DNA of 6,807 nt from Candidatus Fermentibacterales bacterium (lineage in GTDB: Bacteria > Fermentibacterota > Fermentibacteria > Fermentibacterales > JAFGKQ01), in the NCBI GenBank assembly GCA_016928495.1, contig JAFGKQ010000228.1, forward strand, positions 1 to 6,807, in the 5' to 3' direction. The position numbers and the translations under genes are program-made. The notes under the pieces were generated by a model, which was not told the DNA's origin, ran no database searches, and worked only from the letters and a program-made list of their open reading frames with translations. Below, piece after piece: positions 1 to 5,399 of this stretch. How positions within the stretch are numbered: the stretch's first letter is position 1; each line of letters opens with the position of its first letter.

Positions 1-666
1 CACGAATAGGGTCGGGACTCGCGCGTTGAGAGCCAACAGGTTGAGCGCGAGCAGGGCTATGGTGATGTAGGCGGCGCCCATTCCCGGACGGAAGTCGGGA
101 AGCGCTCTGATAGCCCGTCCTGCTTTCCTGGCCGCGGCTATCTCCATCACGATGCAGGCCGCGATTGCGCCCAGAACGGTCTGTAGCGCCCCCATGCCCG
201 GGGAGAGATAGACCATCAGGTCGAGCGCAGCCCGCGCTTCCCGCAGCGGTATGCCCGCAGAGGAATAGAAGGGCAGGAGGAACTCCAGGTCGGTGATCCT
301 CAGGGCCATCAGGCCCTCTCCCCAGAGGGACGCCAGGCAGGCAGCCAGCACTCCGGCTGCCGCCCCGATGGCGCAGCCCTCGATCGTGAAGCCCCTGCGG
401 CGGTAATGCACTCCCGAGGTCGCTCCGACTGCAGACGCGACGAATACCGCTCCCGGCCCCGACAGCAGGTAGACTGCCGCCACGACCAGAAGCACACCGG
501 CCATCGCGGTACCGGTTCTCTGGGCAAAGCTGGCCCCCAGCAGGGCCGCGCCCAGGAACTGGGGTCCCAACAGCAGCAGGAAGAGACCCCACATGAGCAG
601 AACCGGCAGGCCGGGCCGGTGTCTGCTCGATGCAGAGGGCTCGCCGCGCGCGGGGAGGGCGCTCAC
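1..666 (-). CDS. DUF2232/YybS-like multi-span membrane protein (3' end cut by window edge)
   Basis: A minus-strand frame stays open for 222 codons from a GTG at 666 to the window edge, so the C-terminus is missing. The GTG shares its first G with the TAG stop of rpsR (TAGTG), and GAGGGAG lies about 11 nt upstream inside rpsR, which indicates translational coupling. An internal ATG (residue 25) is less likely because it lies inside the first hydrophobic segment. The protein begins MSALPARGEP and has about five hydrophobic segments, near residues 20-45, 52-80, 90-112, 153-176 and 196-217, separated by short polar loops such as HYRRRGF. No catalytic motif is visible. A polytopic DUF2232 (YybS-like) protein between rpsR and rplI is a known arrangement in several bacterial groups, and position plus topology are the basis of this call. 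Its function is unknown; a substrate-binding S component of an ECF-type transporter would look similar. Confidence 0.72.
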   Translation of the reverse strand, partial: MSALPARGEPSASSRHRPGLPVLLMWGLFLLLLGPQFLGAALLGASFAQRTGTAMAGVLLVVAAVYLLSGPGAVFVASAVGATSGVHYRRRGFTIEGCAIGAAAGVLAACLASLWGEGLMALRITDLEFLLPFYSSAGIPLREARAALDLMVYLSPGMGALQTVLGAIAACIVMEIAAARKAGRAIRALPDFRPGMGAAYITIALLALNLLALNARVPTLFV

Positions 667-917
667 TATCTGTAATGCTCCCTCACGTAGGGCAGTATGG
701 CCAGGAACCTGGCAACCTTGATGGCAGCGGCTACGCGCCTCTGGTGCCTGGCGCAGTTCCCGGAGACCCTGCGCGGGACGATCTTGCCCCTGTCCGAGAC
801 GAACCTGGAGAGCAGCCTGTCGTTCTTGTAGTCTATCCTGAGATCAGTGGTAGCGCAGAACCGGCACTTCTTCTTCTTGGGCACCTTGGCGCCACCGCGC
901 TTCTTCTTCCTTGCCAA
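666..917 (-). CDS. rpsR: 30S ribosomal protein S18, zinc-binding (C+) type
   Basis: Encodes S18, which pairs with S6 and binds the 16S rRNA central domain in the small-subunit platform. The 83-residue product starts [13 protein letters not shown] and carries typical S18 blocks: the DYKN/LL segment (residues 29-36), [10 protein letters not shown] (41-50), [15 protein letters not shown] (56-70) and LAILPYV (72-78). Four possible zinc ligands are present as Cys18-x2-Cys21 and Cys55-x2-His58, the Cys-containing form of S18 known from family comparisons. The start is a TTG at 917, chosen because GGAGGT lies 6 nt upstream and because the protein then begins exactly where the S18 family does. The same frame is open further upstream to 1151, but that part overlaps the preceding gene and has no S18 similarity. 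It follows ssb2 by 56 bp and overlaps the next gene by 1 nt. Confidence 0.96.
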
Positions 918-973: not shown

Positions 974-1351
974 CTACGGCCTCGAGGTGTCGGGGTCCTG
1001 AAGGACCTGGACCGACCTGGCCGTCACTTCCATTCTGTGATGCGTTGCCTTGCTCCTGTCCTCGTAATCCAGCGACGACAGGTAACCCTCCACGAGCACC
1101 TCGCTCCCGACCCGGACCTTGTCGTCCAGGGCCTGGGCAGATCTGCCCCATGAGATCACACGAAGGGTGTTGGATGCGACGCGGGTCTCTCTGTCGTCCG
1201 CTTCCCGGCCCCGGTCCATGGTGTTCTCCACGAAGAAGACGAGCGTGAAGTACCCGCCCGACGTCATGCGGAGCCCCTCCCGTCTGATCACCCTGCCGGT
1301 GAAGACGCAGTAGTTGACCTCCGGGCGGTCCAGGCTGCCAGTATCAGTCAT
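974..1351 (-). CDS. Second, short SSB-like OB-fold protein (PriB-position paralogue)
   Basis: A 125-residue single-OB-fold protein of the SSB/PriB type, expected to bind single-stranded DNA or RNA. It aligns by eye along its length with the SSB encoded directly upstream: VFTGRV (16-21) with [20 protein letters not shown] (65-75) with [21 protein letters not shown] (82-91) with GSPVLVEGEL, and [13 protein letters not shown] (106-118) with RIEILARRVQFLQ. It ends shortly after the OB domain (DPDTSRP) and lacks the disordered linker and acidic DDIPF-type tip through which SSB recruits partners. It starts at ATG 1351, 11 bp after the ssb stop, with AGGGAG only 3 nt upstream. In enterobacteria priB, itself an SSB relative, sits between rpsF and rpsR. 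A role in replication restart is possible, but true orthology is unproven; it could also dimerise with SSB. Confidence 0.88.
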
Positions 1352-1362
1352 CGTCTCCCTGC

Positions 1363-1827
1363 TCAGAACGGTATGTCATCGTAGTCGTCCTCCGGAGCCT
1401 CGGAAGGCACGGACCGCTCTTCCTGCTCGCGTCTGACGGCCCTGGCGGGAGCGGGGCCCTGGTCGGGAGACTCAGAAGCCGCTCTCTCCTTCTGAAGAAA
1501 CTGGACCCGCCTCGCGAGTATCTCGATCCGGCTGCGCTGGCTGCCGTCCTGAGCCTGCCAGGAGTTGGTCTGCAGCTCTCCCTCGACCAGCACCGGGCTT
1601 CCCTTCCGGAGAAACTCACCGATCAGCTCCGCCGTGCGCCTCCAGGCCACCACATCGATGAAGCAGGTCTTCTCCTTCCATTCCCCGTCACGCCCCCTGT
1701 AGGACTGCGTGCTGGCTATCCTGAAGTTGGCTACGTTGATCCCGCTCTCCAGGAGGCGCGCCTCGGGATCATCGACGAGGTTCCCCGTGATCAGCACCTT
1801 GTTGAGGCTCGGCATCCTCATGGACAT
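1363..1827 (-). CDS. ssb: Single-stranded DNA-binding protein SSB
   Basis: Canonical bacterial SSB, which coats single-stranded DNA in replication, repair and recombination and recruits partners through its C-terminal tip. The OB domain covers about residues 9-112 and includes LNKVLITGNL, the DPEAR turn, VANFRIAS, and CFIDVVAW followed by GEFLRKGSPVLVEGEL. A Gln/Pro/Glu-rich linker follows, and the protein ends in EDDYDDIPF, the classic acidic tip with terminal Pro-Phe. The start is ambiguous: ATG codons lie at 1830, 1827, 1821 and 1815, giving MMSMRMPSLNK. GGGAG is 2 nt before the first and 5 nt before the second, so 1827 (154 residues) is used here. It lies 36-39 bp downstream of rpsF and 11 bp upstream of ssb2, consistent with one operon. 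Confidence 0.96.
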   Translation of the reverse strand: MSMRMPSLNKVLITGNLVDDPEARLLESGINVANFRIASTQSYRGRDGEWKEKTCFIDVVAWRRTAELIGEFLRKGSPVLVEGELQTNSWQAQDGSQRSRIEILARRVQFLQKERAASESPDQGPAPARAVRREQEERSVPSEAPEDDYDDIPF

Positions 1828-1866
1828 CATGTCTCCCGCCCTTCCATGCCCGACCGGGCGGGGTCA

Positions 1867-2349
1867 TCAGGCATCTTCGGAGTCATTCCCGGCATCCTCT
1901 TCCCCGCTGTCGTCCCCGGAGTCCTCGGATTCGGCAGGCTCTTCCTCGTCCTCATCTTCGGGCTCGCCCTCAGCCGCCCGGACCCTCGAGGCCGGAGCTT
2001 CCTCGTCCAGATCGGCGGCCACGGCCTCCTCTCTGGGCTGAAGCTCGTACTCGACGGGCGACTTGCCGCCGACCCGCAGTGACAGGAAGCGGATGCAGGA
2101 CTCATCCAGCCTGAGGAAGCGGTCTATGGCCTGAGAGACCTGCTCGCCGCCCTGCCACCTGAGAAAGACGTAGAGACCTTCCTGGTGGCCCGAGATGGGG
2201 TACGCGAGCTGCCTCCTTCCCCACTTCCTCGTGCTCGAGATGGTGCCGCCGTTCGCGGTGACCACCTCCGAGAGCTTCTCCACTCCTGTGTCCAGCTCCG
2301 GGTCGGAGAGGCTGGGTGCGTAGATCAATGCTGTTTCATAGGTTCTCAA
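1867..2349 (-). CDS. rpsF: 30S ribosomal protein S6 with long acidic C-terminal tail
   Basis: Encodes S6, partner of S18 in the small-subunit platform. Residues 1-100 are the ferredoxin-like S6 domain: RTYETALIYAPSL (2-14), GRRQLAYPISG (44-54), EGLYVFLRW (57-65), IDRFLRLDESCIRFLSLRV (75-93). The protein has 160 residues. The extra part, about residues 104-160, is low-complexity with 26 Asp/Glu in 57 positions and no basic residue after Arg124, ending GNDSEDA. The start is a TTG at 2349, supported by AAGGAGG 7 nt upstream and by the family N-terminus (M-R-x-Y-E). The frame is open further upstream to 2487, but that part is not S6-like. It is the first gene of the ribosomal operon and is followed by ssb after a 36-39-bp gap. 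Confidence 0.95.
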   Translation of the reverse strand: MRTYETALIYAPSLSDPELDTGVEKLSEVVTANGGTISSTRKWGRRQLAYPISGHQEGLYVFLRWQGGEQVSQAIDRFLRLDESCIRFLSLRVGGKSPVEYELQPREEAVAADLDEEAPASRVRAAEGEPEDEDEEEPAESEDSGDDSGEEDAGNDSEDA

Positions 2350-3431: not shown

Positions 3432-3460
3432 TTGACACAGTCTCGCGGTGAGGCGCAAAC
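3432..3460 (+). promoter_or_regulatory. Candidate promoter for the channel operon
   Basis: A perfect TTGACA at 3432-3437 is followed 17 bp later by GCAAAC (3455-3460), a poor -10. It would initiate about 16 nt before the ATG at 3483. With the TTGACA on the opposite strand 30 bp away, it makes a divergent promoter region, but the weak -10 leaves this uncertain. Confidence 0.3.
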
Positions 3461-3482
3461 CCAGGAACGGGGAGAAGAGGAG

Positions 3483-5399
3483 ATGACCAACCGCTATCCC
3501 CTCAGGCAGAGAGCTCAGTACAGGCTGGACAATCTGATCACCAGGAGCCCCTTCTCGCAGATACTCGCTCTTGCGATGCTGTCGGCTCTGATCGTGATCG
3601 TGGGCACCCTTGTCATCGCGCTCGCCCCCGGCGAGCGAATGGGGCTCGAACCCGGGCAGGACAACCTGTTCTACCGCTTGTGGTGGTGCTTCACGAGGCT
3701 CATGGACCCCGGCACCTTCGTCGAGGACACAGGGTCGGCCCTCATAGGGCTGACCGGCATCCTGGTGACCATGGGCGGCATCCTCGTCTTCTCGCTGCTC
3801 ATAGGAATTCTGTCCTCGAAGATCGGAGAGAAGCTGGACGAGCTGAAGCAGGGGAAATCTCCCGTCATCGAGGAGGGACATACCATCATCCTGGGCTCGG
3901 GAGAGAAGCTCCCTTCCGTCGTCAGGGAGCTGGTGGAGGCGAACGCCAACCAGCCCCGGGCCGTAGTGGCGATACTCTCCGACGTCGAGAAGGACAGCAT
4001 GGAAACGGGACTGCAGGACAGGATCGCCGACTTCGGCACGACCTTCGTGGTGTGCCGGACGGGCGTCGCGACGGACATCGACGAGCTGCGCAAGGTGAAC
4101 ATCGCAGACGCCAGCAGCCTGATCATCCTCGCCTCCGACGACCAGGACTCGGACGTGAACACCATCAAGACCCTGCTTGCCGTGGGCAATCTCGGAGCCG
4201 GCAGGAAGGCACCTCTGCGGGTGGTCTGCGAGATCAACGATACGAGGTTCGGCCCGATCGCCGAGGCTGCTTATCCCGGCTTGAAGTGGATACCGGCCCG
4301 GGAGATAGTGGTAAGGCTGATGGTCCAGATCGCAAGGCAGAACGGCCTTTCCGCCGTCTATTCCGAGATGCTGAGCTTCTCGGGCAACGAGATCTACATC
4401 ATCGAGTCGAGCGAAGCGACGGGGATGAGCTTCGGTGAGATCGTCCACCGGGTCGTAGGCGGAATCGCCATCGGGATCGCCGGAGCCTCGGGAATCGAGC
4501 TCAACCCTGCTGCCGGCCGCCTCCTGCAGGCGGGCGACAGACTGGTGGTTCTTACGGAGGACGACGACACCTGTCGCGTCGACCCGGGCCTGGAGGTCCG
4601 GTTGCCGGAAGGCCTGCGGCAGAGGAAGGAGGAGAGAAGGGAGCCCGAGAGGACGCTGGTTCTCGGCATCAACAGGGATGTGCCCTTCATGCTGCGCCAG
4701 CTCGACTGCTACGTCAGCCCGGGCAGTACTGCCACTGTCGCCGCGCATCTGCCAGCCGGGGAGGCGGCAGCCCTTCTGCCGGAACCCAGGGAGCTGGAGA
4801 ACCTCGCGCTGGAGTACAGGCAGGCCAACAGGACGTCGGTGACGGAGTTGGAGGCCCTGGAGCCTCTCGGTTACGACAACATCGTGGTTCTCTCGAGGCA
4901 GGGATCGGACCTGTCCAGTGAGGCGGCGGACGCTGAATGCATCGTCTGCCTTCTGATCCTGCGGCAGCTTCGGGAGAAAGAGCCCGGACGGGCCAACTGG
5001 TCGTCCATAGTGAGCGAGATCAGGGATCCGCGCAACAAGAAGCTCGCGACCGTTGCCAGGGCCAACGACTTCATAGTCTCCAACGAGATAGTGAGCATGA
5101 TCCTGGCCCAGATATCCGAGGAGCCGTCGCTGGCGGAAGTGTACGCGGAGCTATTCGATCCGGAGGGATGCGAGATATACCTCAGGAGCGCAACGGTCTA
5201 CGTGGAGCCGGGGAGCGCCACGAGCTTCGCGCGAATCATGCAGATCGCTCTGTCGAGGGGTGAGGTGGCCATAGGCTACAGGCGGGCAGCCTATCAGATG
5301 GACCTCGAGCGCAGCTTCGGGGTAGCGCTGAACCCATCGAGGGACGAGCCGCTGGAGCTCGCGGAGAACGACAGCATCATCGTGATCGCCAGAGAGTAG
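3483..5399 (+). CDS. CASTOR/POLLUX-type ion channel with two RCK-like units
   Basis: A 638-residue membrane channel resembling the bacterial relatives of plant CASTOR/POLLUX cation channels. A first membrane helix spans about 24-48. It is followed by a pore-helix segment (FYRLWWCFTRLM, 63-74), the filter motif DPGTF (75-79) typical of this family in place of the TVGYG of potassium channels, and a second helix at 86-110. The rest is cytoplasmic: a first Rossmann-like RCK unit starts at GHTIILGSGEKL (132-143), with a C-lobe at about 290-360. An Arg/Glu-rich linker (376-390) precedes a second unit from TLVLGINRD (391-399), with a C-lobe at about 550-636. The start is ATG 3483, 8 nt after GGGGAG; an in-frame TTG at 3432 is less likely because it falls inside the candidate -35 box. 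Permeant ion and ligand are unknown; K+ or Ca2+ is possible. It is the first gene of a three-gene plus-strand cluster. Confidence 0.9.
   Translation: MTNRYPLRQRAQYRLDNLITRSPFSQILALAMLSALIVIVGTLVIALAPGERMGLEPGQDNLFYRLWWCFTRLMDPGTFVEDTGSALIGLTGILVTMGGILVFSLLIGILSSKIGEKLDELKQGKSPVIEEGHTIILGSGEKLPSVVRELVEANANQPRAVVAILSDVEKDSMETGLQDRIADFGTTFVVCRTGVATDIDELRKVNIADASSLIILASDDQDSDVNTIKTLLAVGNLGAGRKAPLRVVCEINDTRFGPIAEAAYPGLKWIPAREIVVRLMVQIARQNGLSAVYSEMLSFSGNEIYIIESSEATGMSFGEIVHRVVGGIAIGIAGASGIELNPAAGRLLQAGDRLVVLTEDDDTCRVDPGLEVRLPEGLRQRKEERREPERTLVLGINRDVPFMLRQLDCYVSPGSTATVAAHLPAGEAAALLPEPRELENLALEYRQANRTSVTELEALEPLGYDNIVVLSRQGSDLSSEAADAECIVCLLILRQLREKEPGRANWSSIVSEIRDPRNKKLATVARANDFIVSNEIVSMILAQISEEPSLAEVYAELFDPEGCEIYLRSATVYVEPGSATSFARIMQIALSRGEVAIGYRRAAYQMDLERSFGVALNPSRDEPLELAENDSIIVIARE

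Follow-up and report, generated by a model that had tools for sequence, protein, structure and literature searches.

A phylum-wide, tip-less SSB paralogue adjoining the main ssb gene in the rpsF-rpsR operon of Candidatus Fermentibacterota

Results and Discussion

The interval between rpsF and rpsR in Candidatus Fermentibacterota contains two adjacent genes of the SSB family, and the product of the second (ssb2) is, with a probability of about 0.9, an SSB-derived, tip-less accessory protein. The ssb1-ssb2 pair is old and functional, and ssb2 is a fast-evolving gene of the same age as the phylum. The whole phylum keeps both copies adjacent, the second stripped of the acidic tip and of the aromatic residues for ssDNA and yet not turned into PriB. 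A literature search in a limited library found no description of the pair.

Genes of the rpsF-rpsR interval

The window, the entire stretch of 6,807 nucleotides analyzed, is from a Candidatus Fermentibacterota MAG that is 81% complete. The genes on the minus strand are ordered rpsF, ssb1, ssb2 and rpsR (Table 1), in agreement with the original prediction of two SSB-family genes between rpsF and rpsR, and both score above the Pfam SSB cut-off of 26 bits. The genome contains exactly two SSB matches, ssb1 and ssb2, which are 31% identical over 114 aligned residues (E = 2e-15). Two of the sequence blocks said to be shared by the proteins, GSxVLVEG and R(M/I)E(V/I), are present, while the third, given as WxRxAxxL, is limited to WxRxA. 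It is also correct, as had been noted, that priB occupies the same operon position in E. coli.

Table 1. Features of the rpsF-rpsR region in the window.
Feature	Coordinates	Strand	Evidence
rpsF (ribosomal protein S6)	1867..2349	minus	PF01250 Ribosomal_S6, 84.7 bits
GGGAGAC, Shine-Dalgarno-like, abutting the ssb1 start	1831..1837	minus	sequence
ssb1, main SSB, 155 aa, C-terminal DDYDDIPF	1363..1830	minus	PF00436, 110.9 bits; TIGR00621, 133.4 bits
Gap from ssb1 stop to ssb2 start, 11 nt, containing Shine-Dalgarno-like GGGAGAC	1352..1362	minus	sequence
ssb2, 125-aa tip-less SSB-family paralogue	974..1351	minus	PF00436, 47.3 bits; single phylum clade; AlphaFold2 OB fold
rpsR (ribosomal protein S18)	666..917	minus	PF01084 Ribosomal_S18, 84.9 bits

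The S6 protein encoded by rpsF has a long, strongly acidic C-terminal tail (window 1867-2020, EDEDEEEPAESEDSGDDSGEEDAGNDSEDA). An Rfam scan of the window gave no match at E≤0.1, thus no known S6 leader was seen there. Elsewhere in the window, positions 3432-5399 encode a 655-aa protein with Castor/Pollux and RCK-type domains that resembles potassium channels of the CASTOR/POLLUX kind.

The GGGAGAC stretch had been reported before both start codons and taken as the trace of a tandem duplication. The stretch is indeed found before both ATGs of the window (1831-1837 and 1353-1359), but not in the relatives, where ssb1 is usually preceded by a GGAG-type Shine-Dalgarno sequence and ssb2 by no shared motif. 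Because it is not conserved among relatives, GGGAGAC provides no evidence of tandem duplication and this part of the prediction was abandoned. At 36 of 38 loci, ssb2 begins 5-15 nt after the ssb1 stop codon, the two longer gaps possibly stemming from the chosen start codon; from this spacing we infer that the two genes are translationally coupled.

Sequence and predicted fold of ssb2

The linker and DDIPF tip were predicted to be lost from the second protein, which proved correct for ssb2 of the window, where the C-terminus comes directly after the OB fold, and for every relative. The acidic tip is present in none of 37 ssb2 members and the linker is likewise missing; DIPF is invariant across 39 ssb1 sequences. 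All 37 ssb2 members match PF00436 at E≤0.01. In common with bacterial SSBs of this family, ssb2 has the OB fold, N6, E80 and a Trp at the position of F60, and a P-x-LN N-terminus is common to ssb1 and ssb2. Unlike bacterial SSBs, ssb2 has no linker, acidic tip or aromatics at W40 and W54, and in the window scores below the NCBIfam TIGR00621 ssb cut-off (31.2 vs 53.95 bits).

Residues were mapped by aligning the proteins with SSB and PriB of E. coli. At the positions of SSB W40, W54, F60 and W88, ssb1 carries Y/F, F/Y (M once), W and W, respectively. The corresponding positions of ssb2 show mixed residues with the aromatic mostly gone (W40), an aromatic in none of the members (W54), an invariant Trp (F60), and Tyr or Phe in most members with loss in part of the phylum (W88). 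The Glu at the position of SSB E80, which we take to lie at the dimer-dimer interface, is invariant in both ssb1 and ssb2 and is Gln in two PriBs. The K7 position is Lys in most ssb1 and Tyr in most ssb2 proteins. The ssb2 alignment has eight invariant columns, the invariant or near-invariant residues being P10, L12 (V in the window), N13, G19, W68, G69, A72, G82, E88, G89, L91, D98 and A111. The E42-N43 pair is kept in nearly 90%. E42 aligns to E32 of E. coli PriB, a position at which SSBs carry Ala; it is the one likeness to PriB that stands out in the alignment and may be convergent.

The AlphaFold2 model of ssb2 is an OB fold with a pLDDT of 83.4. The closest solved structures are SSBs (Z 15.4) and PriB (Z 13.8), a fold comparison that barely separates the two. 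The best profile match in the PDB was Deinococcus SSB; a special affinity to it was rejected, the score being merely the sum of two domains.

Distribution and selection

The ssb1 alignment was used as the query for genome contigs, and the nearest relatives retrieved were MAGs of Candidatus Fermentibacteria, Aegiribacteria and Sabulitectum. The sample comprised the window genome and 41 others of the same order, altogether 42 Fermentibacterota genomes. The order rpsF-ssb1-ssb2-rpsR was found in 40 of the 40 order members in which the contig reaches past ssb1, in one case spread over two contigs. Outside the 40 are locus L044, where the contig stops 20 nt past ssb1, and the incomplete genome G037, which gave no match. 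This conservation excludes the concern that the pair might be unique to a single assembly. Scores of the ssb2 profile were 112 bits or higher in all Fermentibacterota, whereas none of 343 other genomes gave more than 80 bits; the matches inspected among the latter were ordinary SSBs, and no ssb2 ortholog was found outside the phylum in the 385 genomes sampled. Based on these profile scores, ssb2 is a phylum-specific family on present sampling.

Comparison of close ssb2 pairs by NG86 gave dN well below dS (for example 0.024/0.52 and 0.033/0.33), indicating that ssb2 is under purifying selection. The mean positional difference is 57% for ssb2 and 38% for ssb1. The suggestion that the locus represents an intermediate state is thus not upheld, since the age of ssb2 matches that of the phylum and its divergence exceeds that of ssb1. 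Fast divergence and the loss of key residues would also be expected of a functionless, degenerate duplicate retained only through linkage; this explanation is very improbable, being contradicted by the selection data, by the high-confidence OB fold and by an ssb2 gene that is intact in all members with its invariant columns. The divergence of ssb1 and ssb2 runs in parallel (r = 0.92), a correlation that shared phylogeny alone predicts.

In genus g8 (Sabulitectum type; loci L018, L022-L024, L026, L028-L030, L032, L033, L037 and L041) ssb2 carries a conserved basic tail at its C-terminus, ...ERKA, that is not present in the other genera.

Phylogeny and origin of ssb2

In a tree without PriB, the ssb2 and ssb1 sequences fall into one clade each with support of 100/100, and with PriB included the support for the ssb2 clade is 95/86. 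Clustering of the second protein with unrelated OB-fold families, one of two outcomes that the original prediction had named as fatal to it, is excluded because ssb2 belongs to the SSB family. The unconstrained tree groups ssb2 with PriB (92/88, unstarred) through long branches, but a constrained clade of ssb1 and ssb2 is not rejected (AU p 0.55 and 0.36). The tree is therefore compatible with, but does not single out, a tandem duplication of ssb1 along the stem branch of the phylum, which is a plausible origin for ssb2. An ssb duplication in the rpsF-rpsR operon has likewise been proposed as the origin of PriB, a proposal cited in PMC8509808. A viral origin of ssb2 was considered and rejected; the best phage match is not close (27.5%, 45 bits) and none was found in viral contigs.

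Comparison with PriB and SsbB

PriB of E. coli, Klebsiella and Neisseria resembles ssb2 in being an SSB-derived OB protein of ~100 residues, encoded in the rpsF-rpsR interval, without linker or tip and with fewer ssDNA-binding residues. The original prediction was of a PriB-like accessory factor. On a restart reading of this kind, a dimer of ssb2 would assist PriA in reopening forks that have stalled and in helicase reloading, a role that would have been reached independently of PriB and with different contacts. Such a function is the leading alternative to the role proposed below and is possible, if doubtful. It agrees with the location in the E. coli priB slot, the similar size, the loss of the tip and the weakened ssDNA face (W40/W54), and with the grouping of the two proteins in the unconstrained tree, although that link joins long branches and the alternative clade with ssb1 stands. 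Profile alignment with hhalign also places ssb2 closer to PriB than ssb1 is (56 vs 37, with a PriB alignment of three rows).

The family scores favor SSB. The score of ssb2 against TIGR04418 (PriB_gamma) is 22.3 bits with a cut-off of 72, several ordinary SSBs of other phyla equal or surpass the ssb2 score, and no Fermentibacterota genome exceeds the cut-off. PF22657 is the best Pfam family for E. coli PriB (81.8 bits) and for a second PriB (G186), whereas the window ssb2 scores 24.8 bits with a cut-off of 27, and each individually tested ssb2 has a higher score against PF00436 than against PF22657. Profile-profile scores of ssb2 with hhalign were 133 for SSB, 110 for ssb1 and 56 for PriB, the PriB alignment being thin. 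By these sequence comparisons ssb2 is not a member of the PriB family. It further differs from PriB in that the main, tipped ssb adjoins it in the same operon at all loci, and in that the position of F60 is Trp in ssb2 and Ser or Gly in PriB according to the alignment.

In the fork-bound PriA-PriB complex solved by cryo-EM, D438, S481, T482 and H483 of PriA contact H26, E39, R44 and H81 of PriB (PMC10175261). D438, S481 and H483 are kept in none of 15 Fermentibacterota PriAs, D438 being replaced by A, N, H, S, Y or G, and T482 is kept in one. PriAs from three PriB-bearing genomes retain D438 and S481. The test is of moderate strength because D438 occurs also without PriB, in some gammaproteobacteria and in other phyla. 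On the side of PriB, positions E39 and R44 map into a variable loop of ssb2, and the set H26, E39, R44 and H81 was not recovered in ssb2. The docking residues are therefore missing on both sides of the E. coli contact.

A search for PriA and DnaT, expected to accompany a PriB-like factor, gave a divided answer. PriA is above the cut-off in 33 of the 42 order genomes, and full length in the window genome, but DnaT was found in 0 of 42, as were PriC and the DnaB_2 (DnaD/DnaB) family. The phylum thus has PriA without any known partner for reloading the helicase, as far as DnaT, PriC and DnaB_2 are concerned. The gonococcal primosome differs from that of E. coli in the number of proteins, and PriB of N. 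gonorrhoeae binds ssDNA weakly and yet stimulates its PriA (PMC3179954); the absence of DnaT alone therefore does not exclude a PriB role, and the weak binding proposed for ssb2 is compatible with one.

Another short SSB paralogue is SsbB of B. subtilis and S. aureus, which is among the nearest solved folds to ssb2 (Z about 14-15). SsbB is encoded outside the rpsF-rpsR operon and retains the ssDNA residues. A competence-type role, in which ssb2 would shield incoming ssDNA during natural transformation, is improbable. The absence of a tip is consistent with it, and ComEC was found in 40 of 42 genomes and DprA in 31 of 42 (23 of 24 near-complete genomes); the presence of these proteins says little, since E. 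coli and most other controls also carry them. The neighbors of ssb2 are ribosomal-protein genes and not competence genes, and the ssDNA-stacking residues are gone.

Proposed role as partner of the main SSB

In comparisons of family, profile and fold, ssb2 lies nearer to SSB than to PriB, which is consistent with an ancient, phylum-wide SSB paralogue that would have become specialized as a partner of the main SSB. On its own, ssb2 is expected to bind ssDNA weakly. Together with ssb1 it would most likely form mixed dimers or tetramers, or else dock on SSB-coated ssDNA, so that at sites where repair or restart factors have to load the SSB-DNA complex would carry fewer tips and hold the ssDNA less tightly. 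That ssb2 acts through mixed oligomers with ssb1 is a tentative reading that could well prove wrong. The change of K7 from Lys to Tyr suggests that the tetramer contacts have not been kept unaltered, and the faster divergence of ssb2 would equally fit a separate binding partner. We rank a role in setting the tip count or in mixed oligomers above a PriB role because the tip of the second copy was lost in more than one lineage. A stricter form, with an obligate two-component SSB in which tipped and tip-less OB proteins are made in step and assemble into mixed oligomers with half the tips, is rather unlikely. If true, this would amount to the two-OB SSB of Deinococcus and Thermus in unfused form, and comparable pairs would have arisen separately in other phyla.

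Tandem ssb pairs in other lineages

Tandem pairs in which only the first copy has a tip were found at loci L108 (Edwardsbacteria), L126, L144 and L152. The arrangement resembles that of Fermentibacterota, with rpsF followed by the tipped and then the tip-less ssb, and by rpsR where the contig extends. Both copies are near canonical. Unlike ssb2, the second copies have kept every aromatic, stay close to canonical SSB and form a separate clade; that they do not join ssb2 in the tree suggests that these pairs arose in separate events. At L137 and L138 the tandem copies both carry tips. L166 encodes one chain with two OB folds and one tip, the Deinococcus/Thermus type, which resembles the Fermentibacterota pair in having two non-identical OB folds and a single tip between rpsF and rpsR. 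It is fused with the tip at the chain end, unlike the pair, in which the genes are separate and the tip is on the first. With separate pairs elsewhere, the fate of a duplicated SSB becomes testable, whether as restart factor, regulator of tip count or other.

Locus L161 (1471-1812, genome G079) encodes a lone tip-less OB protein of about 104-114 aa between rpsF and rpsR. The genome contains a second SSB-type match, and the OB gene of L161 may be another PriB-like case, beyond the groups already known.
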